Source: Prevotella sp. (GTDB lineage Bacteria > Bacteroidota > Bacteroidia > Bacteroidales > Dysgonomonadaceae). Taken from it: 64,000 bases of DNA. Position 1 is the stretch's first letter; every line of letters starts with the position of its first letter. Below are positions 2,143-22,067 of this stretch, piece after piece. The stretch is taken from the NCBI GenBank assembly GCA_031285625.1, contig JAITVV010000070.1, positions 41,532 through 105,531 on the forward strand. Reading direction: 5' to 3'. The notes beneath the pieces were generated by a model. The model did not search any database. It was not told where the DNA came from and was given only the letters and a program-made list of their open reading frames with translations. The translations under genes and the position numbers were made by a program.

Positions 2143-3078
2143 ATGAAGACACGTATATCTAACAGTACTATGAAAGCACCAAAAATTGTCGTAATCGGTA
2201 GTTCCAACACCGATATGATTGTAAAAGCAAAGCAGCTGCCTGTTCCCGGAGAAACTATTTTAGGGGAGAATTTCATTATAAACCCCGGAGGTAAAGGTGC
2301 CAATCAGGCTATAGCTGCCAAAAGATTGGGGGGAGATATTACCTTTATAACTAAAGTGGGCAATGATCTTTTTGGGATGCAGGCGTTTGAAATTTATCGT
2401 TCAGAATATATAAATACCGGTTATGTATTTAAGGACCCGGATAATCCATCAGGTGTTGCACTTATCTCTGTAGATTCGATGGGCGAAAATTGTATAATCG
2501 TTGCCGGGGGATCAAACATGCGACTTTCACCGGAAGATATAGATAAAGCTGAAGAAGCTATTAAAGAATGTGACTTGGTTCTGATACAACTGGAGATTCC
2601 ATTGGAAACTGTGGAATACGCTGTAGATCTGGCTCATCGCCATGGTAAAAAGGTTATATTGAACCCTGCACCTGCAACATCTTTAAGTAATGACCTATTA
2701 AAAAAGTTGTATGCCATTCTTCCTAATAGAATAGAGGCACAGATGCTTTCGGGAATCCAGGTTACAGATGAAAAATCAGCTTATGAAGCCTCTCATGCTA
2801 TAAGCAAAAAAGGAATTGATAATGTAGTGATTACACTCGGTAAAGCAGGTGCGTTTGTGAAAGAGGATGATAACTATCGGATGATACCTGCAAAAGAAGT
2901 TGAAACAATTGATACAACCGGGGCAGGAGATGTTTTCTGTGGCGCTATCAGCGTATATTTATCTGAAGGATATTCATTAATGGATTCTGTAGCATTTGCA
3001 AATATGGCTGCATCAATATCTGTAACCAGAATAGGTGCGCAAAGTGCGATTCCTTTCAGACGGGAAGTATTTTTATAA
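2143..3078 (+). CDS. rbsK: Ribokinase (PfkB family carbohydrate kinase), copy 1
   Basis: This cytoplasmic kinase would phosphorylate ribose or a related pentose at the 5-hydroxyl using ATP. The sugar-binding PfkB signature NPGGKGANQA lies near residue 48, and DTTGAGD at residues 257-263 ends in the catalytic Asp. Length (311 residues) is normal. The ORF begins at ATG 2143, but an in-frame ATG at 2170 gives a start (MKAPKIVVIGSSN) that aligns with the paralogue at 13665 (MKKIVVIGSSN), so the first nine codons may not be translated. It meets the convergent MFS gene with only four bases between them, leaving no room for a terminator. Ribokinase is the best family fit, but other pentoses or deoxyribose are possible substrates. 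Confidence 0.9.
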   Translation: MKTRISNSTMKAPKIVVIGSSNTDMIVKAKQLPVPGETILGENFIINPGGKGANQAIAAKRLGGDITFITKVGNDLFGMQAFEIYRSEYINTGYVFKDPDNPSGVALISVDSMGENCIIVAGGSNMRLSPEDIDKAEEAIKECDLVLIQLEIPLETVEYAVDLAHRHGKKVILNPAPATSLSNDLLKKLYAILPNRIEAQMLSGIQVTDEKSAYEASHAISKKGIDNVVITLGKAGAFVKEDDNYRMIPAKEVETIDTTGAGDVFCGAISVYLSEGYSLMDSVAFANMAASISVTRIGAQSAIPFRREVFL

Positions 3079-3082
3079 AAGT

Positions 3083-4237
3083 CTATGCTGTGGGCTTTTT
3101 TATCATAAATCCGCAAAAACATAGATATAAAGCACAAATAGCAATTATAATTACCGAACCTGTTTGGCTACCTATCAGTCCGGTACATTTAGCCATCAAA
3201 GGAGAGGTAACTGCTCCTCCTGCAACACCAGTAAGTAATAATCCTGAAATCTCATTGTTTTTTTGCGGTTCGGTTTGTAATGCAATTGAAAAAAGAATGG
3301 AAAAGACACAAGAACATGTAAAGGCAATAATGACTACCAAGGCTATTATAGAAAAATAAGAATCAGCAAATAGTAAACCGGTAACAGCCAATATAGCGAT
3401 GATTATATTGATACGGTAATATTTTATTTCGGATACCCGGACTAACAAAAACATACCTAAAAACGATCCGAGACTTCTTGCTCCAAAATACCAACTGGTA
3501 CCATACCCTGCCACCTCTTTATTTAGCCCAACTCTTTCCATCAAAATTTTAGGCGTTGCAATGTTCATTCCTACATCCAGCCCTACGATGCATAATATTC
3601 CCAGAAAGAGAAGTATGATTTTTTTATTCTTTAATAATTGCAATGATGGACCGATAGAGGTAACTTGTTCTTGAACAACTTCTTTATCAATCTGTGTGAA
3701 ATAGAGCCAGACAAAAGAGATTAAAGAAATAACAGCATATACAGGGAATAATATTTCCCAAGTGCCGAACTTTAAAGAAAAAAATCCGGCTAGCAAAGGT
3801 CCCATAAATGCTGAAAGTGCTTTTATCAACTGACCCGCTGTTAGTGTACTTGTAAGCATCTTACCCTGAACAATATTCGATAGCAAAGGATTTAATGATA
3901 CCTGCATAAAAGTATTTCCGATACCCAGCATAGCAAAGGCTATATAACATGTAACTGGTGTAAAACGGACAAAGGGAATCACCATACCAATAAAAGTAAC
4001 TACCATACTGATAAGTACAATGTTCTTACGTCCTATTTTATTCATAAATATGGCTGTTGGAATAGAAAAAATCAGGAACCAGAAGAAAACCATGGTTGGT
4101 AAAAATCCGGCCTGTGTCTCTGTCCAATCAAACTGTACTTTTGCATACGTAACCGATATTCCAATGATGTCGGCAAAGCCCATTACAAAAAAGCCAAAAA
4201 GCAACGGTATAAGTTTTACAGTAGTCTTGCTATCCAT
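3083..4237 (-). CDS. MFS sugar permease, FucP-like
   Basis: This 384-residue inner-membrane protein has about twelve hydrophobic segments and looks like a fucose/glucose-galactose-type proton symporter of the major facilitator superfamily. The N-terminus (LLFGFFVMGFADIIGI) and the MNKIGRKN loop between helices 2 and 3 are family features. It is the last gene of the minus-strand corrinoid operon, 14 bases after the activation-domain gene. In context it probably imports the sugar or glycoside processed by that operon; this is inference. The substrate is not readable from sequence. Confidence 0.82.
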   Translation of the reverse strand: MDSKTTVKLIPLLFGFFVMGFADIIGISVTYAKVQFDWTETQAGFLPTMVFFWFLIFSIPTAIFMNKIGRKNIVLISMVVTFIGMVIPFVRFTPVTCYIAFAMLGIGNTFMQVSLNPLLSNIVQGKMLTSTLTAGQLIKALSAFMGPLLAGFFSLKFGTWEILFPVYAVISLISFVWLYFTQIDKEVVQEQVTSIGPSLQLLKNKKIILLFLGILCIVGLDVGMNIATPKILMERVGLNKEVAGYGTSWYFGARSLGSFLGMFLLVRVSEIKYYRINIIIAILAVTGLLFADSYFSIIALVVIIAFTCSCVFSILFSIALQTEPQKNNEISGLLLTGVAGGAVTSPLMAKCTGLIGSQTGSVIIIAICALYLCFCGFMIKKPTA

Positions 4238-4251
4238 TATAATTAAAGGTA

Positions 4252-4956
4252 TTATTTCCGTTTTTTTCTATATATGCACATCTCCAATTCGCAAAGCTGA
4301 CATCCATATGCAGTATATTTTACATTTTTTCCACAACCAATGACTCCACTGATCGACTTCGATGGAATCATTAACGATGATGGTGTTAATTTTACACCGC
4401 AAGGATTGTCTGGAAGCATAGAAAATACCTTAGCTTGTTCGTTTGTATTCCAATTACAATAACCCGGGCTATAGCGATTTGTTATGTTCATTCCTCTTGT
4501 TTTCATTTCTTCAGAAATATGTTCCTGTATGATATCCATTGCTTTTTCTACAATAATATTTCCGAGTATATCTACGAAGTAAGCTTTAACAAGTTCATTG
4601 GTGTTGATATATTCCTTATACTGTTGGGTAATGCCATGGCCCGATGTACAGACGAAAACAATAAGTTGTTCCGCATTTCTTAATTGACGGGCAATTTTAC
4701 TTCCACAATTAAATTCTAAGCTATCCGCAGAAAATTCTTTTTTTCCGATGGATACTGTATCTAAGATTCTGTACAGAGCACTGGCTTTTGAAATGTTTTT
4801 CCCGATAGAAATTACTTCTTCCATTTCGGAAAGGAATGGTTCATAAGAAGGCACGGAAGCGTCTGACGTCTCAAAAAAATCTTCGGGATTTATTTGAAGG
4901 CGTTCATATGAAATCTCACTTTCATAAATTTCTATGCTACTAATGTTTCCAGCCAT
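4252..4956 (-). CDS. MetH activation-domain-like protein (corrinoid reactivation candidate) with C-terminal Cys cluster
   Basis: The C-terminal half resembles the AdoMet-binding activation domain of cobalamin-dependent methionine synthase: RYSPGY (residues 161-166) fits the RxxxGY motif that binds AdoMet, followed by CGVKLTPSSLMIPSKS. In MetH this domain remethylates oxidised cob(II)alamin with AdoMet and an electron donor. Here it stands alone at 234 residues and overlaps the upstream corrinoid-protein gene by 25 bases, which argues that it reactivates that protein. Four late cysteines (208, 219, 222, 227; spacing C-x10-C-x2-C-x4-C) are not part of the MetH domain as I know it and could bind an iron-sulfur cluster. 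No separate RamA or RACo-type activator is visible in the operon. Confidence 0.85.
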   Translation of the reverse strand: MAGNISSIEIYESEISYERLQINPEDFFETSDASVPSYEPFLSEMEEVISIGKNISKASALYRILDTVSIGKKEFSADSLEFNCGSKIARQLRNAEQLIVFVCTSGHGITQQYKEYINTNELVKAYFVDILGNIIVEKAMDIIQEHISEEMKTRGMNITNRYSPGYCNWNTNEQAKVFSMLPDNPCGVKLTPSSLMIPSKSISGVIGCGKNVKYTAYGCQLCELEMCIYRKKRK

Positions 4957-5603
4957 TTTACAGATTCTTGCGGATCACGGCCAAAGCCATCTGCCCCGAT
5001 CGAGGATGCATATTCGGCGCTTACGGGAGCTCCTCCTACTATGACTTTTGTTTGAGGTGATATTTCTTTGATTTTCTGAATAGCAGGGCCCATATTACTC
5101 ATAGTGGTTGTTAACAGAGCAGAGATTCCAATAACGGCATCAGGATATTTTTGCAGTGTATCAATAAACTTCTCACTGGAAACATCTACACCAAGGTCGA
5201 TAACTTCCCATCCTGCACCCTCAATCATCATTCCGCATAAGTTTTTACCAATGTCGTGAAGGTCTCCCAGGATTGTCCCTAGAATGAAAGTTCCTTTACG
5301 CTTCACCTCTCCTGATACGAAATAAGGTTTAAGATGTGCCATAGAGGCATTCATCGCTCTTGCAGATATTAGCATCTGAGGAACGAAAATTTTATTCTCA
5401 GTGAAACGTTGTCCTACAATATCCATTCCCGGCACTAAGGCCTCATTCATAATATCAGACGGACTGATTCCTGTATCTAAAGCCTCTTTTGTCAGTTCGT
5501 CGGCACCAGGCATCCCTTTCATTTCGGGAGGAAAAGGAGTTGCTGCATTGATCTTTCCGGCTACAATGCAACTTTTCAATTGGTTTAATATTTCATTATT
5601 CAT
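4932..5603 (-). CDS. Corrinoid (methyltransferase cobalamin-binding) protein, MtaC/MtbC-like
   Basis: This 223-residue cytoplasmic protein carries a methyl group on bound cobalamin between two methyltransferases. A helical cap domain (about residues 1-95) is followed by a Rossmann-like B12 domain with GDLHDIGKN. Asp114-x-His116-x-x-Gly119 is the classic DxHxxG motif, with His116 as the lower cobalt ligand. Further B12-domain landmarks are GISALLTTTM and VIVGGAPVS. It lies in an operon just after two UroD-fold methyltransferase-like genes and overlaps the activation-domain gene by 25 bases. Proteins of this type serve methanol, methylamine, glycine betaine and methyl-ether demethylation. Which methyl donor is used here is unknown. 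Confidence 0.95.
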   Translation of the reverse strand: MNNEILNQLKSCIVAGKINAATPFPPEMKGMPGADELTKEALDTGISPSDIMNEALVPGMDIVGQRFTENKIFVPQMLISARAMNASMAHLKPYFVSGEVKRKGTFILGTILGDLHDIGKNLCGMMIEGAGWEVIDLGVDVSSEKFIDTLQKYPDAVIGISALLTTTMSNMGPAIQKIKEISPQTKVIVGGAPVSAEYASSIGADGFGRDPQESVKWLETLVA

Positions 5604-5625
5604 ATCATTCTGTTTTTGTTAGTTC

Positions 5626-6687
5626 TTATTGTCTTTCTCTTCTTCTTATTTCTTTTACAGCATCGGTCATTGCTTTAAAACCTTCAATACTCATATAGTC
5701 AGGAATCGAATTGCCGGATCCCAACCCATATCCATTTGCGTTTTTCCTGAAGCGTACACCGTCCTCTAATACTTTCTCGAAAACAACATCATAAGGATTA
5801 AGAATCAGGTAATTCATATCGAATCCACCAAAGAGGCCTATTTGATCAGAATATTTTTCAATCCATGTATCAAAAGGACAAATCTGATCTTCATTAGAAT
5901 GTTTGGCATCGATACCAAGTGCAAGGATATCGGGCATAATTTCGAAAATATTACCACAACAATGCAGGAGAAACTTTTTATTCACACTGTGGGCAACATC
6001 AACTACCCGTTTGTGTTGGGGCAGAACGAACTTCCTGAATGTATCAGGTTCGAGCATAGTAGCAGTTTTATGCCCCATATCGTCACCCATTCTGTAAAAG
6101 ACAAAAATGTCATCATACTCTTTTACCATCTTAGACCATAGTTCAACAAACAAATCTCCGATCCGAATAAAAAGATCGGCAAATAAGTCCGGATCGATAT
6201 ATTGCATTACACATAAATTCTCGTACCCTACCAGATCCTGTGATGTTTCAAATATACCATAACCACAACCACCGTACGCTTTCATCCCTTTTGGCATAAC
6301 TTTTCGTATAGCCTCTAAACGGGGAGTGTATGTCTCCCAGAATATGCGGGGGATATCTCCGAATGGATACTTATTGAAATCGTCGCGCGTTTGAATAGGT
6401 CCAAGCATTCCACCCAGAATAGCTCCATGCCCCGGTAAAATCTCGCATATAGCTGCTTCATAGCTGAAAGCATCATATCCGTGATCTTTCCAAAAACCGA
6501 TATATTTCCTGAAATAATCTTCAAGTTCAGAAGAGTTATTTGAACTGATTTCTATTTTTTCACCTAAGTATTTTGAAACAAAGGGAGCATCAATGTTGTG
6601 TTCGTACAATGGCAGATAATCTGGTCTTTGGTTGTACATCACTTTCAGTATATTTGTATAGTCCGGCTGGAATTTTTGCTGACTCAT
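5626..6687 (-). CDS. UroD-fold methyltransferase-like protein (353 aa)
   Basis: This protein belongs to the uroporphyrinogen-decarboxylase superfamily, whose MtaA/MtbA/MtgB branch moves methyl groups to or from corrinoid proteins. The sequence LLHCCGN supplies His242 and Cys244 of the H-x-C zinc motif. The distal cysteine expected in S-G-C-D is replaced: the equivalent segment reads GSGNSIPDY (Asn326). Many UroD-like enzymes that demethylate the substrate, rather than methylate a thiol, have an altered metal site, so this may be the substrate-side enzyme (inference). It lies 22 bases before the corrinoid-protein gene and is probably translated from the same message. True haem-pathway uroporphyrinogen decarboxylase is unlikely in this company. 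Confidence 0.88.
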   Translation of the reverse strand: MSQQKFQPDYTNILKVMYNQRPDYLPLYEHNIDAPFVSKYLGEKIEISSNNSSELEDYFRKYIGFWKDHGYDAFSYEAAICEILPGHGAILGGMLGPIQTRDDFNKYPFGDIPRIFWETYTPRLEAIRKVMPKGMKAYGGCGYGIFETSQDLVGYENLCVMQYIDPDLFADLFIRIGDLFVELWSKMVKEYDDIFVFYRMGDDMGHKTATMLEPDTFRKFVLPQHKRVVDVAHSVNKKFLLHCCGNIFEIMPDILALGIDAKHSNEDQICPFDTWIEKYSDQIGLFGGFDMNYLILNPYDVVFEKVLEDGVRFRKNANGYGLGSGNSIPDYMSIEGFKAMTDAVKEIRRRERQ

Positions 6688-6738
6688 TATGATAAAATAT
6701 TAGTGTATTAATTAAGGTCACAGACCTATTTATTACTT

Positions 6739-7743
6739 TTACCTACTATGTGATTGGTTGTACTTCTTCACTGCATCAAAAAAAGCCAAAATATTTTCTT
6801 CAGGAATAAAAGGTGGAATGTCACACCCCGATGAAATAACAAAGTTTTTGTATAAGGATGTTTTCTCCAGTAATTCACTTGTGATACTTTGTACCTGCTC
6901 TCTGGAACCTTGTTTGAAAGTTACTACCGGGTCGATATTACCCATAACCAAAATATCGGAAGGACATTCTTTCAGCACCTGTAATATGTCTATTTTATTA
7001 CCAAAATGAAGTGCCTTCGCTCCACTTTTTATCATAGCATCCGTACATTGGCCTGTATTTCCGCAATTATGCAGAATAACCATGAAGTCTTCGTCTTGTA
7101 CCGCTTCTACGATTTTTTTTACAAATTCGGTGGAATAAGCCTGACAATCGTCATTTTGTAAAAGACCGGCTGCCGGTTCGGCTATTATTACCCCTGCTGT
7201 ACCTGTATCTTTCAGTGTCTGGCAATATTGAATAAGGAAAGATGTGCATTTTTCCAAAAGTAACAGTATTGTTTCAGGTTCGAGATAAATTGCCATCATT
7301 ATTTCCGACATATCGAATAACCTTCCTGCAAGCGAGTATGGCCCTATACAGCCCGACAAAACAGGTTTGTCCTTTATGTTTTCGGCGGCTAGCTTATTTG
7401 CCGAGAGATATGCAGGGATCCTGGCTGCTGAAAGTCCGGGTACCTGAAGATTCTCTACATCATTCATATTTGCCACTAAGCGGCCTATGACAGATGGAAC
7501 GTCGTCCTCAGGAAAAATAATTTCGGCACCGAATGCCTCTGCTTCAACAGTCAGATCCATTATAACTGTACATGCCGATGAATCATATTTCTCCGAAAGT
7601 GCTTTTATGGCTTTGTAATGTACGGTTCCATCCGTTACTGCATTCTTTACACTTTCTCCGATTATTTCCATCCCGGGATTTGTCATTATGGGTATAGCTA
7701 ACCGTGCCGTACTTTCTATTATATCATTTACGGATAATTTCAT
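6739..7743 (-). CDS. UroD-fold cobalamin:thiol methyltransferase-like protein (334 aa, MtaA/MtbA-like)
   Basis: Of the three UroD-fold proteins in the operon this is the only one with a full zinc triad: His225 and Cys227 in HNCGN, and Cys307 in SSGCDIPP. In MtaA/MtbA this zinc activates a thiol such as coenzyme M to accept the methyl group from methylcobamide. That makes it the best candidate for the acceptor-side methyltransferase, although the acceptor in a Bacteroidales cell is unknown (homocysteine or another thiol is possible). Gly-Asn-Ile-Asp-Pro (GNIDPV, from residue 268) is the usual UroD-family loop. It is 51 bases upstream of the next UroD-like gene and follows a perfect intercistronic hairpin. 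Confidence 0.9.
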   Translation of the reverse strand: MKLSVNDIIESTARLAIPIMTNPGMEIIGESVKNAVTDGTVHYKAIKALSEKYDSSACTVIMDLTVEAEAFGAEIIFPEDDVPSVIGRLVANMNDVENLQVPGLSAARIPAYLSANKLAAENIKDKPVLSGCIGPYSLAGRLFDMSEIMMAIYLEPETILLLLEKCTSFLIQYCQTLKDTGTAGVIIAEPAAGLLQNDDCQAYSTEFVKKIVEAVQDEDFMVILHNCGNTGQCTDAMIKSGAKALHFGNKIDILQVLKECPSDILVMGNIDPVVTFKQGSREQVQSITSELLEKTSLYKNFVISSGCDIPPFIPEENILAFFDAVKKYNQSHSR

Positions 7744-7778
7744 ATATAATCTATTTTATTATGGTTTCAGGTTGTTTA

Positions 7779-7820
7779 AAGAAGTTTTGCAATTTATTGC
7801 GGTTCATTGCAAAACTTCTT
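7779..7820 (-). other. Perfect 14-bp intercistronic hairpin
   Basis: AAGAAGTTTTGCAA at 7779-7792 is exactly complementary to 7807-7820, leaving a 14-base loop. It lies in the gap between the GH38-like gene and the 334-residue methyltransferase gene. No T-tract follows on the minus strand, so a partial attenuator, mRNA processing site or 3'-end stabiliser fits better than a full terminator. Confidence 0.7.
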
Positions 7821-7828
7821 ATGGTCAA

Positions 7829-10381
7829 TTAATAACTACCTGTTAACCTCTGAGGAGTATTCAAATATTTATTTACAATAGCATCTTCCCTTGCTTTAGG
7901 ATTATTCATAATTGGCATAGGGATGTAATATGAATCGGTAATATCCCTTACTTTTTCTACCGATGGTTTTCCTTTGTCGAAGGTCAGGTCAAATTCAAAA
8001 GTCATTTCACCTGGTGAGTCTACACAGAAGTTAACCACCCATAAATTATTATATAACATGCCGAATAATTCATTCACATTTTCAGGTGCATTTTGCAATT
8101 TTTTACCCATGCTATGTCCGCCAAAGTTGACTATTGGAATATCACCCGACGACCAGATACGTGTACCGTCCTGTGAGTCATATTTTACCCAGCTATCTAT
8201 TACAAAGAAGTCTTTACATGAGTTCGGAATCTGGTCTTTATATAATTCGTAAGGCATACCACCATTTGTTGCAACAGGTTGCTTGCATCCTTTTGGGAAA
8301 GGGAACCTGGCATAAAATACTTCCGGTGCGATAGAAGAAATCCTGTCAAAGAAAACATTTACTTTTGCCCGTGGTATTTCCTTAAATATTTCAACTTCCC
8401 TGCGCATGCTTTTCAGTCGTGGATGTTCCATATCCTGAGAAATAATCCATGAATACGGTGTTTCCCTTACCTTGGCTTTATTTTGGGGTTTAGCCCAATT
8501 GATTTCTGTTATATCTTCCCATTTTTTGAGCCGCTTCTCGTCTTCCCAATGCATATAAACATCACCTTGCGAGTAGCGATCCATATCATTTACATTGACT
8601 ACCATAAAGTCTGCCAGTCCTTCTGTAAAGAGAGGTTCGTCCATACCTTTCCATTTCGCAGAAGTTATCCAGTTGTTCTTATCGAATGTAAGTTCAGGCA
8701 AATCAGTTTTTACTTCTGTTGCTTTTACTTCAGATGTTTCCAGCATAAAGTGGGTATATGAATTAGCAGGCATATTATTTATCCAGAACCATGCCTGAGT
8801 GCCGCCCGGAACGGCTTCGCGGCTTGTATTTAAGTTCTCATCCACTACCCAACGCCAAACATAATCGCCTTCTTTGAATAAAGGATATGTTTCATTGGTT
8901 TTTACATCTCGTACCGATTTGTAGTCCACTTCCCTGAAACCAACTACATCCAGTTTTACCCAGCCTGTATAAGAAGCATTGGATACATTTGAAACATACA
9001 GGCCTTCGTCCATATCGGTAAATTTATTACGAACTAACTGGCCCAGTAAGTATTTACTCCTTTCCCATGGACGATAGGCAAAACTGCCTTTTTCGTTCAA
9101 TTGTCCCAGGGTATATAAACTGTAAGGGTAATCAGATGTTTCGTTAGAACCATATGTATGTTCAAAATAACGGCATAATAAACGGTTGATATCTTTCAAT
9201 TCTGTTTTAGCTCCATCATTCAATGTGCCCCATAACGGCGATTTTATGGCTTTGGTATTATATACTCCACGACGGGCCACTTGCATTTCGCGTGGCATGG
9301 ATGCACCTCCAAACGCCCACCAGTCCTGCCATTCACCTTCATAGGTTTCCAATTTGTCTCCAACTTCTTTTTCGATATTCTTCATGGCTTCGCCTGCTGT
9401 TTTCATTCTAAGCACCGGCTTAAGTCCCATTTCATTCCATTTGTTGATAAATGTAAGTAGCTGAGGCATAGGGCCATCATTATCGCATCGCCATTCGTTA
9501 GTAAATGTCAGCGTAAGGAATGGATAGTCATAACCTTTATCACGCAAATCCTTCAGCCTTTTGATACATACTTCGTGCGATTCACGCATCGATGCTTCGT
9601 CGGTAAGAAGTATATTTCCGTTTCGTGGCCATGTTGTTTGTGTATTGGCATATTCACGTTGCTGTAAACGCCACTCACGTTCGGCAAAAAAGAGGTAACC
9701 TTGCCAGTATGGATATCCAGACCAAACCAATAGTTTACGGCTATCAGGCATTTTCCACCAGAATGCGCCTGGCTGCTCTACCGGAGAACCTCCCCAATGC
9801 TGATTGATTCCCATCCACACATAGTTTATATCCCTGTCCAGCAGTTTTGTTGCTGCTATGCGGGGAAAACCATTTACATCATGTTGCATTCCCACTTTTA
9901 TATCCAGCTGGGTACGTATTTCTTCAGGTATCCAGTTCAGCATCTCATCCCATTGCTCCGAACTGGCATAAGGATGTATATGGAAAGGCATGGCATTGAT
10001 ACCGATCTGCTTATTTTTTATCATTTTCAGCATATCATTTCTACGCTTTTCAGTAGTCTCTACCCACCAAGAATAAAATGGGTCGAGTGCTTCAACTGTC
10101 CATACAAAACGACTTTCAGGTTTTTCGTTTTGTGACTGTAAGGCTAAATCCAAAGCTACATCTATAAACCTTTTATGCAAGTCGATATCAACAAGCGCAT
10201 GATCGGTATAACCATAGTCGGTATGTGTTACATGCACAATATCTATGTATTTAAAATCCAGAGTATCTTTTCCTTCAATGCTGCTATCGCTTTCGGCTAT
10301 ATTCTCAGTTTTAGTGTTACAACTGAAGAATAGAAATAGAAATAATAAGCCGCTCAGCAGTTTACTAATAGTAGATTTCAT
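7829..10381 (-). CDS. GH38-like glycosidase lipoprotein (DUF5054 type)
   Basis: This is an 850-residue exported protein. The N-terminus has a hydrophobic stretch ending in FLFFSC, so Cys21 is a likely lipid-anchored residue. HVTHTDYGYTDH follows, with His53-x-Asp55 matching the zinc-binding HxD of family 38 alpha-mannosidases. QHDVNGFP (Asp168) is placed like the GH38 nucleophile segment. The rest is rich in Trp and Tyr and ends in a beta-rich region, as in DUF5054 proteins. It probably removes a sugar (perhaps mannose) from a glycan at the cell surface or in the periplasm. It sits inside the corrinoid operon, between two UroD-like genes, which ties methyl transfer to glycan breakdown. Activity and linkage are unproven. 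Confidence 0.78.
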   Translation of the reverse strand: MKSTISKLLSGLLFLFLFFSCNTKTENIAESDSSIEGKDTLDFKYIDIVHVTHTDYGYTDHALVDIDLHKRFIDVALDLALQSQNEKPESRFVWTVEALDPFYSWWVETTEKRRNDMLKMIKNKQIGINAMPFHIHPYASSEQWDEMLNWIPEEIRTQLDIKVGMQHDVNGFPRIAATKLLDRDINYVWMGINQHWGGSPVEQPGAFWWKMPDSRKLLVWSGYPYWQGYLFFAEREWRLQQREYANTQTTWPRNGNILLTDEASMRESHEVCIKRLKDLRDKGYDYPFLTLTFTNEWRCDNDGPMPQLLTFINKWNEMGLKPVLRMKTAGEAMKNIEKEVGDKLETYEGEWQDWWAFGGASMPREMQVARRGVYNTKAIKSPLWGTLNDGAKTELKDINRLLCRYFEHTYGSNETSDYPYSLYTLGQLNEKGSFAYRPWERSKYLLGQLVRNKFTDMDEGLYVSNVSNASYTGWVKLDVVGFREVDYKSVRDVKTNETYPLFKEGDYVWRWVVDENLNTSREAVPGGTQAWFWINNMPANSYTHFMLETSEVKATEVKTDLPELTFDKNNWITSAKWKGMDEPLFTEGLADFMVVNVNDMDRYSQGDVYMHWEDEKRLKKWEDITEINWAKPQNKAKVRETPYSWIISQDMEHPRLKSMRREVEIFKEIPRAKVNVFFDRISSIAPEVFYARFPFPKGCKQPVATNGGMPYELYKDQIPNSCKDFFVIDSWVKYDSQDGTRIWSSGDIPIVNFGGHSMGKKLQNAPENVNELFGMLYNNLWVVNFCVDSPGEMTFEFDLTFDKGKPSVEKVRDITDSYYIPMPIMNNPKAREDAIVNKYLNTPQRLTGSY

Positions 10382-10424
10382 CGTATTTTAATTTAAGTTA
10401 TTATTAAGCTAAAATTTTCAAAAT

Positions 10425-11480
10425 TCAGTACACGCCATATTGCTTGACAGTTTCAATAAGGCAAAGCACATTTTCAGTCGGAATATTATCGTGGATACTG
10501 TGATCGGTGGAAATGATATATCCGCCACCGGATGCAGCCTCATTCAGACATTCCAAAACTTCATTCTTCACATCATCGCTGTTAGCCGATTCCATTGTCA
10601 CCTTGTTGTTCACATTCCCTATCGGGGTGATTCTTCCTTTGTATGTATCTTTCACTTTCTTCAAATCCATACCTGCAGCCCTTTCTACAGGGTGTAAGGC
10701 ATTAATGCCGCAATCAGCCAGATCGTCGATCACGTCCCATATCTGTCCGTCGTTATGCATAATAAAAGGTAATCCATATGCTTTTACAGCTTGTACCAGA
10801 CGTTTGAAATAAGGTATGAAAAATTCCCTGAATTGTTCGGGTGCTATCAATAATCCATTTGTCCCACCCCAATCGTCAGATATCTGTACACAATCTACAC
10901 CGCCTTCTTTGACAGCCAGTTCTAAAGCCTCCAGTGCCCATTTCAGGTATGCTTCATTGATTTCGTGAATAAGGTCAGGATCGGTAAACATGTTTATTGA
11001 AAAAGTTTCCATATCCATAATATACCATGAAAGCATTGTAAAAGGTCCTAATAAACCAAGAACAACAGCTAAATCTGATTCGTTAGCAGCCAGTACATCT
11101 TTCAAGATACGTGTCCGGTATGGTGTATCTACTTCAGGTAATTTGTAATTTTCCCAATCTTCGCGGCATTTTACCGGGGCACCGATCTGAGCAATAATAG
11201 GCCAGCCGTTTTTCCGGTATGTTACTTCCCATTCATCCTTATAGATCTCATCCTTTTCGTGCGGAGTTTCTTCTATTCCACAAAAACCGTTTATAGGAGT
11301 CCATATAGTATCGATACCCAATTTTGCAGCCAGTTCTACCTGAGCTTTTCCATCATACAATATGGTATTATATCCCAATAATTCTTTTTGTAGTTTCAGG
11401 CTAAATAAATGTTCGTGAATAGGAACCCTGTCTGGTGTTCCCCCGGTGAGGGCAGTTAAAAATCTTTCACGTGATGTCAT
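10425..11480 (-). CDS. UroD-fold methyltransferase-like protein (first gene of corrinoid operon)
   Basis: I chose the ATG at 11480 because MTSRERFLTALTGGTPDRVP is the standard UroD-superfamily opening. An ATG at 11519 would add 13 residues without homology. The zinc H-x-C motif is changed to His-Asn-Asp (MHNDGQ, residues 242-244 from this start), and the distal Cys region reads STDHSIHDNIP with no cysteine. The protein therefore cannot hold the MtaA-type zinc site and may bind the methylated substrate instead, as the UroD-like O-demethylase components of acetogens do (inference). It heads the seven-gene operon, 43 bases before the GH38-like gene. Confidence 0.87.
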   Translation of the reverse strand: MTSRERFLTALTGGTPDRVPIHEHLFSLKLQKELLGYNTILYDGKAQVELAAKLGIDTIWTPINGFCGIEETPHEKDEIYKDEWEVTYRKNGWPIIAQIGAPVKCREDWENYKLPEVDTPYRTRILKDVLAANESDLAVVLGLLGPFTMLSWYIMDMETFSINMFTDPDLIHEINEAYLKWALEALELAVKEGGVDCVQISDDWGGTNGLLIAPEQFREFFIPYFKRLVQAVKAYGLPFIMHNDGQIWDVIDDLADCGINALHPVERAAGMDLKKVKDTYKGRITPIGNVNNKVTMESANSDDVKNEVLECLNEAASGGGYIISTDHSIHDNIPTENVLCLIETVKQYGVY

Positions 11481-11519
11481 GGTGTTCCGATTAATTTGGT
11501 TACAATTTATAGGTATCAA

Positions 11520-11841
11520 ATCTTAAGTTCAGCTAGCATTTTTATAAGATTTTCCGGTAGTGTATTTCATTAGCTAGCCAGCAAAAAAACTCTAAGCAAA
11601 TATAAATTCTTTACTACCCTTAAATTCACCAAATATTACCTAAAACAATAATCTCAAACTATTAAAAAATCATATATAATGTTTTTAATACCTAATTATC
11701 AATTAGTTATATTTTGTTTTTTTATTCATTATTATAATTATTAAGAAAATGGCCAGTAGATAAGTAATTATTTTATTTTCTACTTTTACAAAAAGCAAAG
11801 AACGCTCCCCATCATTTTTTCCAACAATAAATTTTTATAAA
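11520..11841. other. Divergent regulatory gap between the corrinoid operon and the plus-strand glycan genes
   Basis: The gap contains no gene. It is very AT-rich with several T and A runs. I looked for a cobalamin riboswitch in front of this B12-dependent operon and did not see the conserved B12 box (GCCACTG) or its folded arms. A minus-strand -7 box is annotated separately. Confidence 0.5.
11597..11604 (-). promoter_or_regulatory. Candidate -7 promoter element of the corrinoid operon
   Basis: The minus strand reads TATATTTG, a perfect TAnnTTTG Bacteroidetes -7 box, about 117 bases ahead of the first gene's chosen start. No clear -33 TTTG lies at the usual 19-21 base spacing; the nearest is 25 bases away. 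Confidence 0.45.
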
Positions 11842-13395
11842 ATGAAAAAGATAGATTCTGTTATTTCATTGTTGCATTCGTTATCCAAATCGGAGAAGAA
11901 GCATATTACTTTACATGTCTTGAGTGGAAATGAAAACAAAGATTATTTGATTATTTACGATCTTATAATCAATCAGAAAATATATGATACACAGAGTATC
12001 AAAATGGAATTTACGAAATCAAAACCAACCGGTTCTTTTGAGATTGCAGTTCATTATTTATATGATAAAATACTCAATTCTCTATTGATGCTTCGTAAAA
12101 AGAAGGACATAGTGTATGATTTGTTTCAAATAATAAGTAAAGTGAGGATGTTGTACGAGCGTTCCTTATTTCATGAATGCTTCGAGCTGCTTTCCGAAGC
12201 GATTGAAATGGCCCGGAAATACCAATATTACGAAATATTGATAATTGCCTTAAGGCTTGAGTTGGAATATTTGTTCCGCCTCAATTTTCCGGACATATCG
12301 GAACAGGAACTATATCATAGGCATTATGAGCTGGGTGATGCTATAAAAAACATTCGAAATATCACGGAACAATCTTCTCTTCATGATACATTGAAATACC
12401 GGTTGATATATAAAGGAAGCATTCGTACAGATAAACAAAAGCGAGAAATGAATGACCTGATGGTTAGCGAATTTTATATTGCCGCATCTACAGAAAGTAA
12501 AAACAATTTTGAAATAAAAAAGAACCACCAGTTGTTTCAATCAAGCTATTTGATGGGTGTCGGTGATTTCAATTCAGCTTTAGAAACTCTGAAAGAACTA
12601 AATAGGGTCTTCGAAAATAATCCGGAGCACTGGGCAAATCCTCCAATCTACTATATGTCGGTATTGGAAGGTATATTGAGTAGCTTACGCTTCTATGGCA
12701 ACTATGAAGAAATGGGATATTATGTCGAAAAACTGAAAATTTTAGCTGAATCGTCATCGGTAGAATTTAAAGTAAATACCTTATGTCTGGTTTTCCAATA
12801 TGAATTGTTTCCTTGGCTAGATAAAGGTGATTATGAGAAATGTAAGGAGATTATAGAAGAGTATGATGAACGTTTGTTCAGTAAAGAAAGCTGGTTAAAT
12901 CCTATCCGGCTCAGTGAATTAATATTGTATACCTCGATAGTACATATTGGAATGAAAGAATTTTCTAAGGCAAAGAAACGTTTGAATAGTCTTTTATTTG
13001 ATCGGTTTATGGATTATTTACCTATTAAAAAGATAATCCGCCTCATGCGTCTGATTGTTTATTATGAATTGGGTGATTTTGATTTGATCAGATTTGAAAC
13101 ACGTTCTATCAAAAGAGGGATGACCAATAAAAAAGAGCCACATTACAGAACAGAGCATATGTTGCTTTGGTTTCTTAATAATGAAAATCTGCCTGTCTTT
13201 AACAAAGACAAAGATGATTTGTGGAAAAAAATTTCTAATCAACTTACCGAATGGCAGGATAACCGTTATGAGCGCCAGATATTATATTTATTTGATTTTA
13301 CTGCATGGATAGAAGCTAAAATCTTTAAGAAGCCACTTTCTACAATAATGGAAAAAAATTTTGAAGAAAAAATGAAAAATAATACACAGCATTAA
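11842..13395 (+). CDS. Cytoplasmic helical-repeat (TPR-like) protein, function unknown
   Basis: This 517-residue protein has no signal peptide or membrane segment and is built from successive amphipathic helices. Segments such as YERSLFHECFELLSEAIEMA and MGVGDFNSALETLKELNR look like degenerate tetratricopeptide repeats. It is rich in Lys, Glu, Leu and Tyr and ends in a charged tail. I do not recognise a catalytic or DNA-binding motif. It stands first on the plus strand, divergent from the corrinoid operon and 269 bases before the second ribokinase. A scaffold or regulatory role at this locus is possible but unsupported by any motif. Confidence 0.8.
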   Translation: MKKIDSVISLLHSLSKSEKKHITLHVLSGNENKDYLIIYDLIINQKIYDTQSIKMEFTKSKPTGSFEIAVHYLYDKILNSLLMLRKKKDIVYDLFQIISKVRMLYERSLFHECFELLSEAIEMARKYQYYEILIIALRLELEYLFRLNFPDISEQELYHRHYELGDAIKNIRNITEQSSLHDTLKYRLIYKGSIRTDKQKREMNDLMVSEFYIAASTESKNNFEIKKNHQLFQSSYLMGVGDFNSALETLKELNRVFENNPEHWANPPIYYMSVLEGILSSLRFYGNYEEMGYYVEKLKILAESSSVEFKVNTLCLVFQYELFPWLDKGDYEKCKEIIEEYDERLFSKESWLNPIRLSELILYTSIVHIGMKEFSKAKKRLNSLLFDRFMDYLPIKKIIRLMRLIVYYELGDFDLIRFETRSIKRGMTNKKEPHYRTEHMLLWFLNNENLPVFNKDKDDLWKKISNQLTEWQDNRYERQILYLFDFTAWIEAKIFKKPLSTIMEKNFEEKMKNNTQH

Positions 13396-13664: not shown

Positions 13665-14561
13665 ATGAAAAAAATAGTTGTTATAGGAAGTAGTAATACA
13701 GATATGGTAATAAAGTCTGATAAATTGCCAAACCCGGGCGAAACAATCCTGGGTGGAGAATTTTTGCTAAATCCCGGAGGTAAAGGGGCTAATCAGGCAG
13801 TAACTGCTGCAAGACTTGGTGGAAAAGTCACATTTATTGCAAAAATAGGCAGTGATGCATTTGGCAAAAATTCAATAAATCTATATTCGTCCGAAGGTAT
13901 AAATACCGAATTTATTTTTTCTGATCCGGAAAAGCCGTCAGGTGTAGCATTAATAAATGTAAATGAAAGTGGTGAGAATTGTATTGTAGTAGCTCCGGGT
14001 GCTAATGGCTTATTATCGGTAGAAGATATAGAAAAAGCGAAATATGAGATTGAATCTGCCGATATCTTATTAATGCAACTGGAAATCCCTCTATCTGTGG
14101 TTGAGTATTCCGCTAAGCTGGCATACGAAAAAGGTATAAAGGTTATTCTGAATCCGGCTCCGGCCAATGAACTTTCTAACTCCTTACTAAAATGTCTGTA
14201 TATTATAACACCAAATAAGAATGAAGCGGAGGCACTCTCGGGAATAAAAATAACTGATATCGAAAGTGCAAAAAGTGCAGCTGCAGTAATAAGAGAAAAA
14301 GGAGTTGACACAGTAATAATTACGATGGGCGAATTAGGCGCTATCATTTGTGATGACCAACTTCATCAAATCCCTGCCGTAAACGTAAAAACAGTGGATA
14401 CAACAGCTGCGGGTGATGTATTTAATGGAGCTTTATCAGTGGCGCTGGCTGAAGATAAAAGCATAGTGGATGCAGTAATATTTGCCTGTAAATGTGCTGC
14501 GCTGTCGGTGACCAAACTAGGTGCCCAGTCATCTATTCCCTACCGGAACAATATTGTTTGA
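13665..14561 (+). CDS. rbsK: Ribokinase (PfkB family), copy 2
   Basis: This 298-residue paralogue of the kinase at 2143 shares long near-identical blocks with it, including VVIGSSNTDM, NPGGKGANQA and VILNPAPA. The catalytic motif is DTTAAGD (residues 245-251), the same form as in E. coli RbsK, while copy 1 has DTTGAGD. It would make ribose 5-phosphate, or phosphorylate a similar pentose, in the cytoplasm. The GH13-like gene starts 35 bases later, so the kinase likely leads a plus-strand sugar-use operon. Having one kinase at each end of the divergent locus suggests duplication, possibly with specialised substrates. Confidence 0.92.
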   Translation: MKKIVVIGSSNTDMVIKSDKLPNPGETILGGEFLLNPGGKGANQAVTAARLGGKVTFIAKIGSDAFGKNSINLYSSEGINTEFIFSDPEKPSGVALINVNESGENCIVVAPGANGLLSVEDIEKAKYEIESADILLMQLEIPLSVVEYSAKLAYEKGIKVILNPAPANELSNSLLKCLYIITPNKNEAEALSGIKITDIESAKSAAAVIREKGVDTVIITMGELGAIICDDQLHQIPAVNVKTVDTTAAGDVFNGALSVALAEDKSIVDAVIFACKCAALSVTKLGAQSSIPYRNNIV

Positions 14562-18632: not shown

Positions 18633-19811
18633 ATGAAAAGAAAAATTCTTACGCATCTCTTTCTTATCATATTTTTATTGGTAGGCAACTCTGTTTTTTC
18701 TCAAGATTTTGCTGGGGATCTCAGTAGCCTGATCACTATAAAAAAAGATATGAAAAGCCGCCGTATCAGCACGGCAGACCCAACAGGTAACAATCATGAC
18801 AATACAGGGTTAATCAAGATTGGAGATAAGAAGGTAATCGAGATTGAAGGATCTGGAATCATCAATCATATCTGGATGACGATTGCTCCCTGGGATATGA
18901 GGCGAAATGATATTATTTTACGCATATATTGGGATGGAAATGACTATCCTTCAGTTGAATCACCGCTGGCTGCATTCTTTGGAAACGGCTGGGACGAAAA
19001 ATATAATTATGCATCTTTGCCGCTGGCAGTAGGACCTGCCGACGGAACAGGTATGGTATCTTATTTTCAGATGCCATTTAAAAACGGAGCTAAAATAGAA
19101 ATTGAAAATCAGGCAGATCGAAATATCGACTGTATATATTTCTATATAGATTATGTGGAAATGAATGAGCTACCTGATTATATAGGTCGTTTCCATGCAT
19201 GGTACAATCATAAATTAACAGAAGCATTGCCAGAAGGCGAGACCGAATGGGGGGTTGTCGGCACAATGGAAAACAATGTAGATGGTGCCAGAAATTATGT
19301 TTTCATCGATACTAAGGGAAAAGGACATTTTGTAGGTATCAACTATTATGTACATTGCCCTTCTCCGATGTGGTATGGCGAAGGAGACGATATGTTTTTT
19401 ATAGATGGTGAAAAACGGGCATCGATTTTAGGTACGGGAACCGAAGACTTTTTCAATACCTCGTGGTGTCCCAAAACACTTTTCGCTCATCCTTATTACG
19501 GGTATGCCAGAGTAAATAATGAGATTGGCTGGCTGGGAAGGACACATGTATACAGGTTTTTTGTTTCAGATCCAATATATTTTGACAAATCGCTAAAAGG
19601 TACTATCGAGCATGGTCATAACAATAATCTGACACTCGATATCGGTACTGTAGCATACTGGTACCAAAGTGAAGCGGGCATATTACCTCCGGCACCAACG
19701 AAAGAACAACGTGCTCCTAAAGCATTCATTATCGATCGTGATATACATAAGTGGCGTCATGAATGGAGAAAGAGTAAAGGAAATAGTTCTACATTGTGGG
19801 GTAATGAATAA
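18633..19811 (+). CDS. GH172 (DUF2961) glycosidase, short form
   Basis: This 392-residue exported protein has a clear signal peptide ending near VFSQ (residue 24). The DUF2961 core includes IEGSGIINHIWMTIAPW, DGTGMVSYFQMPF and GTGTEDFFNTSW, with Glu271 and Glu326 (in TIEHG) as the likely catalytic pair. Family GH172 contains enzymes acting on D-arabinofuranosides and difructose anhydrides, and members from Dysgonomonas have been shown to act on mycobacterial D-arabinan. The neighbouring second GH172 gene and the ribokinases suggest release and use of a furanose sugar (inference). The family call is firm and the substrate open. Confidence 0.88.
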   Translation: MKRKILTHLFLIIFLLVGNSVFSQDFAGDLSSLITIKKDMKSRRISTADPTGNNHDNTGLIKIGDKKVIEIEGSGIINHIWMTIAPWDMRRNDIILRIYWDGNDYPSVESPLAAFFGNGWDEKYNYASLPLAVGPADGTGMVSYFQMPFKNGAKIEIENQADRNIDCIYFYIDYVEMNELPDYIGRFHAWYNHKLTEALPEGETEWGVVGTMENNVDGARNYVFIDTKGKGHFVGINYYVHCPSPMWYGEGDDMFFIDGEKRASILGTGTEDFFNTSWCPKTLFAHPYYGYARVNNEIGWLGRTHVYRFFVSDPIYFDKSLKGTIEHGHNNNLTLDIGTVAYWYQSEAGILPPAPTKEQRAPKAFIIDRDIHKWRHEWRKSKGNSSTLWGNE

Positions 19812-19976: not shown

Positions 19977-22067
19977 ATGAAATATCGGTTTGCAGTCAGT
20001 CTGTCTATTGTCTTAATCACTTTATTTTCATTATCCTGTGATAATGAAAATAAAGAAATAACCTTTCTTTCCTTATTGCATGAGATGACTGATAGAGAGT
20101 CTACCAGCAAATATCCCGATCCGTACTATACAGCTAAGCAGTTTAGCAGCTATGATCGTGCTTCGGATACTGCCAGAATAGGATCTTTCTACTGGTTTGC
20201 AAACTGGGATTTTAGCCAGTTTTTACGTACGGAAGAAAATAATGGACGAAGGGAATTTGTATTGTTCGATGCGGAGGGTCCGGGAGCTGTTGTAAGATTC
20301 TGGATAACTGTAGCCCATTATAATGACAATGGTATACTACGGTTCTATCTGGATAAGTCGGAAAAACCTGTGATAGAAGGTGAAGTACTATCTCTTATTA
20401 GTGGTGGAAAACTGGTAGGTGATCCTTTGTCGGTATCTGTTTCCGAAACAACACCCTACAAACAGAGAGGGCATAATTTGTACCTGCCCATTCCTTATTC
20501 ACGACATTGTAAGATAACATATGAAACGCCCGGAATTATTGAAGCAGGAAGAAAACCTCCAGGTGAAAATTTTTTCTATAGTGTTGCATATAGGACTTAT
20601 GAAGAAGGTACTGACGTAAAAAGCTTTACAATGGAAGATCTGTTGCTCTATTCCGAAGATATAAAACTAACGCAGCAAAAACTTAAATCGGAACCTGATT
20701 TTTCCAATTTTACCAAAACAGAATCTGAAACTAAAAATATAAAAAGCAAGGATTCTGAAAATATGGTTTCTTTAGCAGGTACAAAAGCAATCAAAGGTAT
20801 CTCTGTTAAACTCACTGCCGAAGATTACGAACAAGCTTTGCGTTCGACAATACTTAAGATATCGTTTGATGGAAACCAGTCGGTATGGGCACCGGTAGGT
20901 GACTTTTTTGCAACAGGAAACCGTCTTTCTCCTTACCGTTCTTTTTATACTACTGTAACAGGAGATTCGATATTAGACTGTTATTGGGTGATGCCATTTA
21001 AAGACAAATGTGAAATTTCTCTGGAAAACTTAAACGGTAAACCTGTACAGGCATCACTTACAGTCTATTCATCGAATACCAAATGGGATAAAAACAGTAT
21101 GTATTTCGGTGCCGGATGGACAGAATATAACCGTAAGCACACGGGCGAAAAAAGGAGTATAGATGGATCGTATGGAGCCAGTGATATTAATTTTGTTACA
21201 CTTAATGGCAAAGGTATTTATGTGGGAGATGCTGTAACCATCTTCAACCCGATAGGTGACTGGTGGGGCGAAGGTGATGAGAAAGTATATGTGGATGGTG
21301 AAAGTTTTCCCTCGTTTTTCGGAACAGGGACAGAAGACTATTATGGTTATGCATGGTGTCTGCCAAACTTTTTTGAGCATCCGTTTATTGGCCAACCTGA
21401 TGGGCAGGGTGCATACCAACCCGGCCATGTCTCGAACCTGCGCTATAGGGGATTGGATGGGATCACTTTTGATAAATCCATTATATTTGATATGGAATTC
21501 TGGCATCAGGGTGGTACATATATAAACTATGCTGTGACGACTTATTGGTACATGTTGCCCGGAGGTAAAACCAACCGAAAGGAAGAGACTGCATTAGCTT
21601 CCTTGCCTATTGTAAAACATAAAAATGAACTGGTTAGCAATGTTCCTGACGAAAATGGGATCATTGAAGGCGAATACCTGAATATTAAAGTTCAGGGCGG
21701 TATGGAAAGAACCCAAAGCCTTATTGACTTTGAATGGCGCAACGGTACTCAATTCATCTGGCGCGAAGCTAATACGGGCGATATTGCATGGCTCGGGTTT
21801 GTAGCAAAAGATGAAGGTGTATATCAAATTAACTTTGAAATGACAACTGCTACAGACTATGGAAGGTTTGCACTTTACATTAACGATAAATTGGTAGAAC
21901 AGTCATTTAATGCATATAGCTCTGTATTGCAGATGAAAACCCTTATTTTGAAAAATATACAGCTTAGAAAAGGAGAGAATATATTAAAGGTGGTACAATT
22001 ACAGAGAGATCCGAAGGCTGTAAATACATTATTCGGACTGGATTATATGACTCTTATTAAAAAATAA
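19977..22067 (+). CDS. GH172 (DUF2961) glycosidase lipoprotein, long form
   Basis: This 696-residue lipoprotein carries the lipobox FSLSC near residue 20, so it is probably anchored to a membrane. The DUF2961 core holds GTGTEDYYGYAWC with Glu453 and DMEFWHQGG with Glu507, matching the catalytic positions of its shorter neighbour. A C-terminal beta domain (about 565-696), ending in NTLFGLDYMTL, looks like a carbohydrate-binding module. Two GH172 enzymes of different size in one locus may attack different linkages or ends of the same furanoside polymer. The downstream hairpin at 22195 probably terminates the transcript. Confidence 0.87.
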   Translation: MKYRFAVSLSIVLITLFSLSCDNENKEITFLSLLHEMTDRESTSKYPDPYYTAKQFSSYDRASDTARIGSFYWFANWDFSQFLRTEENNGRREFVLFDAEGPGAVVRFWITVAHYNDNGILRFYLDKSEKPVIEGEVLSLISGGKLVGDPLSVSVSETTPYKQRGHNLYLPIPYSRHCKITYETPGIIEAGRKPPGENFFYSVAYRTYEEGTDVKSFTMEDLLLYSEDIKLTQQKLKSEPDFSNFTKTESETKNIKSKDSENMVSLAGTKAIKGISVKLTAEDYEQALRSTILKISFDGNQSVWAPVGDFFATGNRLSPYRSFYTTVTGDSILDCYWVMPFKDKCEISLENLNGKPVQASLTVYSSNTKWDKNSMYFGAGWTEYNRKHTGEKRSIDGSYGASDINFVTLNGKGIYVGDAVTIFNPIGDWWGEGDEKVYVDGESFPSFFGTGTEDYYGYAWCLPNFFEHPFIGQPDGQGAYQPGHVSNLRYRGLDGITFDKSIIFDMEFWHQGGTYINYAVTTYWYMLPGGKTNRKEETALASLPIVKHKNELVSNVPDENGIIEGEYLNIKVQGGMERTQSLIDFEWRNGTQFIWREANTGDIAWLGFVAKDEGVYQINFEMTTATDYGRFALYINDKLVEQSFNAYSSVLQMKTLILKNIQLRKGENILKVVQLQRDPKAVNTLFGLDYMTLIKK

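Follow-up and report, generated by a model that had tools for sequence, protein, structure and literature searches.

A corrinoid methyl-transfer operon with three UroD-family proteins and a glycosidase in Bacteroidales, and its possible role in sugar methyl-ether removal

We analysed a window of 64,000 nucleotides from Prevotella sp. (GenBank assembly GCA_031285625.1, contig JAITVV010000070.1, positions 41,532 to 105,531; Bacteroidales, Dysgonomonadaceae) that contains a compact operon of seven genes on the minus strand at 3083-11519. Three of its products, a corrinoid protein (COR), a MetH-activation-like protein (ACT) and one UroD-family protein (UroD_B), form a portable back-end in Bacteroidota, to which different front-end methyltransferases are joined in different genomes. 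We moderately favour the reading that the operon serves the anaerobic, corrinoid-dependent removal of a methyl ether from a sugar, with transfer of the methyl group to a thiol. The operon and its upstream region comprise the following features.

3083..4237, minus strand: sugar-type MFS permease, proposed importer of the methylated sugar (PF07690, MFS_1, 106.6 bits)
4252..4956, minus strand: ACT, stand-alone MetH-activation-like protein, proposed corrinoid reactivase (PF02965, Met_synt_B12, 42.5 bits)
4932..5603, minus strand: COR, corrinoid methyl-carrier protein (PF02310, B12-binding, 85.8 bits; PF02607, B12-binding_2, 74.5 bits)
5626..6687, minus strand: UroD_A, proposed methyl-ether:corrinoid methyltransferase (MT1) (PF01208, URO-D, 70.4 bits)
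6739..7743, minus strand: UroD_B, probable back-end methyltransferase (MT2) with a thiol-type H-C-C site (PF01208, 185.1 bits)
7829..10381, minus strand: GH38-family lipoprotein, proposed alpha-mannosidase-like glycosidase (PF01074, Glyco_hydro_38N, 36.0 bits, cut-off 25)
10425..11480, minus strand: UroD_C, second proposed MT1 (PF01208, 132.2 bits)
11481..11841, no strand assigned: divergent intergenic region with the probable operon promoter and one TATATTTG on the minus strand at 11604

An earlier note, made from the DNA letters alone, had described seven tightly spaced minus-strand genes of these families, an intact DxHxxG site in the corrinoid protein and the absence of MtaB and MttB. The open reading frames and Pfam scores, all seven above the curated cut-offs, agree with the gene list. 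COR indeed holds the motif as GDLHDIGKN, with D114, H116 and G119 conserved in at least 97% of 56 aligned sequences, and Pfam and NCBIfam scans of the operon gave no MtaB or MttB family match. MttB is also missing from the genome; for MtaB the genome-wide scale was not searched. Gaps along the operon are 14 (permease/ACT), -25 (ACT/COR), 22, 51, 85 and 43 bases, the ACT gene overlapping the end of the COR gene by 25 bases, and we infer that the genes are cotranscribed and active. One start shifts: the UroD_C frame was listed from a TTG at 11519, and its aligned homologues begin at an internal ATG, so that the true start is probably the ATG at 11480. A promoter scan of the divergent region found a lone -7-like motif and no -7-like match with a properly spaced TTTG (we take TAnnTTTG to be the Bacteroidetes -7 motif), and no riboswitch or other known RNA reached the Rfam gathering level in the window.

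COR and ACT are homologous to the corrinoid and activation domains of MetH. COR matched the metH model TIGR02082 at 128.6 bits, which for this single protein lies far below the whole-MetH cut-off, and the ACT match covers positions 120-257 of the 273 in the Met_synt_B12 model, the C-terminal half only. ACT keeps an SPG(Y) region, presumably the motif of the MetH activation domain, and in an alignment of 59 sequences S163, P164, G165, C167, W169, C219, C222 and C227 were invariant; the four cysteines (C167, C219, C222, C227) are a possible Fe-S site. The homocysteine-binding domain PF02574 was absent from the operon in the Pfam scan.

The metal sites of the three UroD proteins divide them. UroD-family S-methyltransferases are described as having a His-Cys-Cys site, and O-methyltransferases as losing one or both cysteines (PMC10418091; this and the other cited papers are represented here by excerpts). 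In aligned columns, counting only proteins of 291-459 aa and leaving out the duplicate or near-duplicate loci L041, L042, L045, L047, L049, L052, L053 and L156, the back-end UroD_B copies were H-C-C in 92 of 92 and UroD_A was H-C-N in 13 of 13. UroD_C itself is H-D-H, and its group was H-D-H or H-C-H in 4 of 4. A further front-end family, UroD6 (n = 31), was H-C-H or H-D-H in 27 proteins, H-D-F in 3 and H-C-C in 1, and an extra UroD at L116 was H-D-G. The UroD_B residues H225, C227 and C307 were invariant in 13 sequences. As judged from these residues, the split between UroD_B and UroD_A/UroD_C appears to fit the published distinction between S- and O-methyltransferases (PMC10418091). UroD_B is the conserved back-end with a thiol-type site, which leaves UroD_A and UroD_C as candidates for the primary methyltransferase. 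The proposal in the earlier note that a UroD-like member fills this role therefore survives for UroD_A and UroD_C, and UroD_B is instead the probable second methyltransferase.

Structure prediction and family scores add to this picture. The AlphaFold model of UroD_A (pLDDT 88.2) had as its top Foldseek match 4ay8, a methanogen methylcobalamin:CoM methyltransferase. The nearest NCBIfam model to UroD_B was PRK06252 (147.3 bits, cut-off 244), and the scores against the other curated models of the MtaA/MtbA group were likewise below their cut-offs (139.3 against 235.4, 132.3 against 600 and 115.4 against 400 bits). URO-D was matched five times in the source genome, a 94% complete assembly of 4.84 Mb in 96 contigs. 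Since all five lie inside two corrinoid modules, the operon and one on contig C95, their clustering in the operon is not chance; a role of these proteins as heme enzymes was ruled out on the same distribution. The second module (L056, 8455-12067) has the order UroD6-COR-ACT-UroD_B and lies near an AraC-type regulator, a GH16 protein and a SusC-like gene.

The earlier note had proposed a search for the gene order in other genomes, which showed the module to be widespread in Bacteroidota and not confined to the source genome. Scanning named genomes with UroD_B gave at least 584 confirmed relatives, of which the best 80 were kept as named loci; all of these 80 are Bacteroidota. COR lay within 3 kb of UroD_B or was fused to a front end in 63 of the 80, a limit that excludes more distant COR genes in L088, L111, L124 and L135, and ACT lay within 3 kb in 67. 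In every locus with enough sequence to judge, COR, UroD_B and ACT remained together and the other genes varied. Of the 80 loci, 52 span 20 kb or more and 28 span less; a recognised front-end methyltransferase was found in the fetched flank of 60 loci in all and of 44 among the 52 long ones. A tree of 57 UroD proteins, midpoint-rooted and with long-branch warnings, sampled 18 of 96 UroD_B-scored rows (15 back-end, 3 front-end) and 16 of 31 UroD6 rows. The 15 back-end rows formed one clade whatever their front end (support 100/100), and UroD_A, UroD_C and 15 of the 16 UroD6 rows formed a separate one (support 100/97). Within the family, 92 of 101 genomes matched COR at 1e-15, mostly in MetH-length frames; separate COR homologues occurred at 54-74% identity in 12 other genomes (split into two frames in G059) and at 34-45% in three more. 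Genes of the RACo type (PF14574) were found in few relatives (L066, L067, L097, L102, L107, L117).

The front ends exchanged on this core are diverse. UroD6 occurs with RhaT and L-rhamnose mutarotase genes in six loci (L058, L062, L064, L070, L078, L096). UroD_A has orthologues at 62-80% identity in 8 of 392 other genomes of the order, plus two distant ones at 32-33%, and the core stands beside or near UroD_A in L104, L098/L156, L099, L159 and L160; the contigs of L155 and L157 are short, and the COR- and UroD_B-like genes of L158 are all divergent. MtaB together with RACo forms the front end in L097 (by Pfam) and in L107 and L117 (by our own profile). Because MtaB is the likely donor enzyme in these three, UroD_B would be their second methyltransferase; from their gene content they are apparent methanol systems. 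These COR-UroD_B-MtaB-RACo clusters (L097:5806-11517, L107, L117) belong to uncultured Bacteroidia, two of them (L097, L117) have a CobW-like gene, and no folate methyltransferase was recognised beside them.

A last front-end family, c5 (about 354 aa), has no Pfam match. Its AlphaFold model (pLDDT 94.3) best matched 4ay8 and UROD structures (E 8.3e-9, TM 0.60), which predicts that c5 is a cryptic UroD-fold family. Fusions of c5 to COR occur in L087 (P. vulgatus), L092, L093, L103, L109, L113, L119 (cut by the contig end), L121 (c5 part split over two frames) and L123. In Phocaeicola vulgatus ATCC 8482 (L087:11967-19652, minus strand) the operon runs GH141-GH31-(c5-COR fusion)-SSF, and UroD_B and ACT are encoded on the opposite strand; B. 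salyersiae (L109) and B. xylanisolvens XB1A (L121) share this arrangement. The divergent UroD-like families c75 and c25 lie next to each other in GH141 loci (L061:17370-18985, L063:18341-20545).

The earlier note had also tied the demethylation module to glycan use, and its relatives do recur in carbohydrate operons. GH38 is present in the window's operon, in L055 (same genus), in L126 and in L095; GH92 is present in L050, L098/L156, L100, L132 and L155, among others, and in L155 and L098/L156 it stands beside UroD_A (L104 has a GH130-like protein just under the cut-off). The order GH38-MFS-UroD-COR-UroD_B-ACT is kept in L055 and L126, the latter with a CobW-like gene before ACT. L132 combines GH92, MFS, UroD, COR, UroD_B and ACT, and L100 combines GH92, MFS, COR, ACT and UroD_B. 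MFS proteins 37-44% identical to the operon's permease lie near the mannosidases of L055, L126, L132 and L100. The GH38 protein itself begins with a lipoprotein-like FLFFSC, read by eye, and has a 44% relative in one of the 392 other genomes (L168). The two share HTD and HDVNGF motifs in an alignment read by eye, presumably the HxD and nucleophile-Asp catalytic residues; a sequence search of the PDB gave no match at E 0.01.

Compared with 20 control regions, 93 module loci were richer in GH31 (36 against 0), GH141 (22 against 0) and SSF (39 against 0), counts to be read with the facts that the profiles derive from these same module loci and thereby favour matches there, that several module loci are close relatives and that the controls come from other, partly the same, genomes of the order. 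Differences were not significant for SusC (14/93 against 4/20), SusD (13/93 against 5/20), GH2, GH78, GH127, RhaT, rhaM, rhaM2 or MFS of the window's type. A Pfam comparison of neighbours, limited to the top 25 families on each side (110 of 699 non-core and 113 of 268 control genes), is used only as illustration. Many c5 operons contain GH31 and often GH141. This setting is linked to rhamnogalacturonan II (RG-II), a plant glycan with methyl-ether sugars, and suggests an RG-II-type methyl sugar as substrate of the c5 systems. The substrate of the window's operon is probably a sugar with an O-methyl group, O-methyl-mannose being the best candidate. Glycans of algae, mosses, invertebrates and mycobacteria contain methyl-ether sugars; the sources seen in excerpt report O-methyl-mannose in microalgal and moss N-glycans and in mycobacterial methylmannose polysaccharide, and term counts suggest it for planarian N-glycans.

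Under the favoured reading, the GH38 lipoprotein would free the O-methyl sugar from a glycan and the permease would bring it into the cell. UroD_A, UroD_C or both would move the methyl group to cob(I) on COR, leaving the free sugar for catabolism, and UroD_B would pass it on from COR to a thiol; homocysteine, which would give methionine, is the likeliest acceptor and sulfide a less likely one. ACT would re-reduce COR after a fall to Co(II).

The acceptor was addressed through the rest of the genome. PF00809 was found only in dihydropteroate synthase (275.8 bits, cut-off 162.6) and in MetH, with no MtrH (PF02007) and no separate MeTr-type protein in the 94% complete assembly. MetH, of 1230 aa, holds the genome's only PF02574 domain. 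In two relatives, a Prevotella metagenome-assembled genome (L133:13517-16657, minus strand) and an isolate of Xylanibacter rarus (L136:13958-16999, minus strand), c5 and COR are fused with PF02574 between them, and this combination of c5, homocysteine S-methyltransferase and corrinoid domains would in effect be a methionine synthase without a folate module. Since no separate folate methyltransferase was found and homocysteine domains are fused in two relatives, the acceptor is probably a thiol, most simply homocysteine; sulfide is less likely. Transfer to tetrahydrofolate through UroD_B or MetH, for oxidation or use as C1 units, would agree with the methylenetetrahydrofolate reductase (MTHFR) gene of the genome and with the acceptor usual in the bacterial systems reviewed in PMC10418091, but it is unlikely given the lack of a stand-alone MeTr- or MtrH-type enzyme, the thiol-type site of UroD_B and the homocysteine-domain fusions.

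More tentatively, the whole group might be seen as a methionine synthase taken apart in Bacteroidota, in which swappable sugar methyl-ether demethylases (UroD_A, UroD_C/UroD6 and the Pfam-less c5) replace the folate module. Methyl groups of O-methyl-mannose, O-methyl-rhamnose, RG-II-type methyl sugars and other glycans would then be handed to homocysteine by UroD_B or a fused homocysteine domain. This is a possible generalisation that we hold as doubtful.

Several observations weigh against sugar demethylation with a thiol acceptor. First, GH92 alone was not enriched (10 of 93 module loci against 1 of 20 controls) and also accompanies other front ends. The association of mannosidases with the window's type of MFS (GH38 or GH92 in 5 of 14 module loci with it against 8 of 79 others, p = 0.024) was chosen after seeing the data. 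Second, the core was not found at the UroD_A loci L161 and L162, in 18-20 kb of sequence, nor at the distant L163 and L164, and the only close orthologue of UroD_C found (64%, L165) has an efflux protein and a cytochrome as neighbours instead of glycan genes. Third, the metal-site rule is not clean: c25 (4 of 4) and c75 (2 of 2) are H-C-C, and the additional UroDs of L055, L126, L132 and L051, which presumably act as front ends, are H-C-C too. Fourth, no front end was recognised in 20 of the 80 named loci, including 8 of the 52 that reach 20 kb; among the 20, L126 and L132 have an extra UroD scored as UroD_B by our own profiles. Lastly, UroD_B persists beside both homocysteine-domain fusions (L133, L136), so it may use another thiol.

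As an alternative, the operon could encode an aryl methyl-ether O-demethylase like MtvB or MtoB; its substrate would be a plant glycoside's methoxylated aglycone, and GH38 would serve only to remove the sugar. Known UroD-family O-demethylases use methoxy-aromatics (PMC8630106, PMC13222342), and an MFS transporter is induced together with the Mto system (PMC8630106). We consider this quite unlikely: the operon's Pfam matches include no aromatic-ring family, in other loci the module is accompanied by genes for glycosidases, rhamnose transport and mutarotase, ACT stands in place of a RACo-type activase, and no MeTr-type second methyltransferase was found in the genome. It is rather improbable that the operon demethylates S- or Se-methyl compounds in the manner of mlp gene clusters (MGC), with UroD_B acting on a methyl thioether or selenide. 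UroD_B does resemble type 1 MGC proteins in its H-C-C site and its nearness to the MtaA/MtbA group (PMC10418091), but H-C-C is found in only one of the three UroDs, the operon's matches include no sulfur or selenium family, and the same UroD_B clade also accompanies MtaB.

The operon lies within a ribose-use locus, flanked by ribokinases (2143-3078 and 13665-14561) and a BT2802-family protein (11842-13395), with SusC, SusD and an ADP-ribosylglycohydrolase beyond them on one side; the operon itself has no SusC or SusD, and a minus-strand SusC/SusD pair lies just past a plus-strand ribokinase. The earlier note had taken these neighbouring sugar genes as a clue to the substrate, which was not supported: the same-genus genome G008 has RusR and two ribokinases in one contiguous block, the methyl operon is absent from it and COR matches a MetH-length frame only. 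The ribokinase at 2143-3078 is 73% identical to the one that directly follows RusR in G008 (L200:13859-14788), so a rearrangement of the ribose locus around the operon seems likely. The operon's position there is probably incidental. Use of 2-O-methyl-ribose from RNA, to which these flanks and the ribokinase-like genes (about 40%) of the UroD6 loci L050/L052 and of L129 would point, is thus very improbable, as GH38 does not fit it, the ribose genes of G008 stand together without the operon, and no ribokinase or RusR match was found in the UroD_A loci read, within the fetched flanks. DUF2961 (PF11175) proteins are also encoded near the ribose genes (18633-19811 and 19977-22067), and at L168 the closest GH38 relative adjoins a DUF2961 protein 42% like the 19977-22067 product.

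The methyl group of methyl-ether sugars can block use of the sugar. In the excerpts of the literature examined, a P450 monooxygenase was the only sugar demethylase encountered (PMC10033563, PMC12316285), and a 2025 paper describes anaerobic sugar demethylation as unsolved. The module supplies concrete genes with which the question can be put to a direct test, among them those of Phocaeicola vulgatus ATCC 8482 (L087), a type strain whose species is common in the human gut. Should the methyl group go to homocysteine, glycan digestion would be tied to B12 and methionine in the gut, and if the taken-apart methionine synthase is real, glycan digestion would directly feed the synthesis of methionine and S-adenosylmethionine.

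UroD-type corrinoid demethylation and the coupling of corrinoids to methionine are each known, and we have moderate confidence that their combination with a glycan operon is new to the open-access literature, where no described system with the operon's combination was found; this absence is weak evidence, subscription papers lying mostly outside it. The methylcobamide:CoM methyltransferases MtaA and MtbA resemble UroD_B in family and H-C-C site (best solved relative 4ay7), but UroD_B falls under their family cut-offs, and to our knowledge Bacteroidota are not expected to have a coenzyme M pathway. The Mtv (MtvABC, Moorella), Odm-Vdm (Acetobacterium) and Mto (MtoABCD, Methermicoccus) systems share with the operon a UroD primary methyltransferase, non-H-C-C as in UroD_A and UroD_C, a separate DxHxxG corrinoid protein and an activator. 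Their clusters feature a RACo-type ATP-dependent activating enzyme, whereas the operon's activator is MetH-like (PF02965). The Mto system also has an MFS transporter (PMC8630106). UroD-type corrinoid systems that act on methoxy-aromatics and on chloromethane have been described (PMC8630106, PMC13222342); in the excerpts the substrates of Mtv, Odm and Mto are methoxy-aromatics, where the operon has a glycosidase, and their second methyltransferase is MtvA, AcsE or MetH-like (PMC13222342), where the operon has a UroD-type H-C-C back-end. Type 1 mlp clusters likewise combine several UroDs, a corrinoid protein and an activator with no folate methyltransferase, but they contain Mlp2 and Mlp3, nearly all H-C-C, a Ram/RACE activator and sulfur or selenium genes (PMC10418091). 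The operon has one H-C-C protein and two without it, a MetH-like activator and glycan genes, and its assignment to this type was rejected on the metal-site and activator features. The P450 system for 6-O-methyl-galactose also strips a methyl ether from a glycan-derived sugar, but it is a monooxygenase that releases formaldehyde and uses no corrinoid in the excerpts available (PMC12316285, PMC10033563). Methionine synthases that work without folate and are related to MetE have also been described (PMC7857596). MtgBCDE of Ruegeria pomeroyi differs in acting on glycine betaine, a quaternary amine, through an MttB-family enzyme and a pterin protein in aerobic marine bacteria, and the excerpted account mentions no UroD proteins; there, too, a shared corrinoid protein joins a methyl donor to homocysteine, and methionine synthase is modular (PMC12478193).

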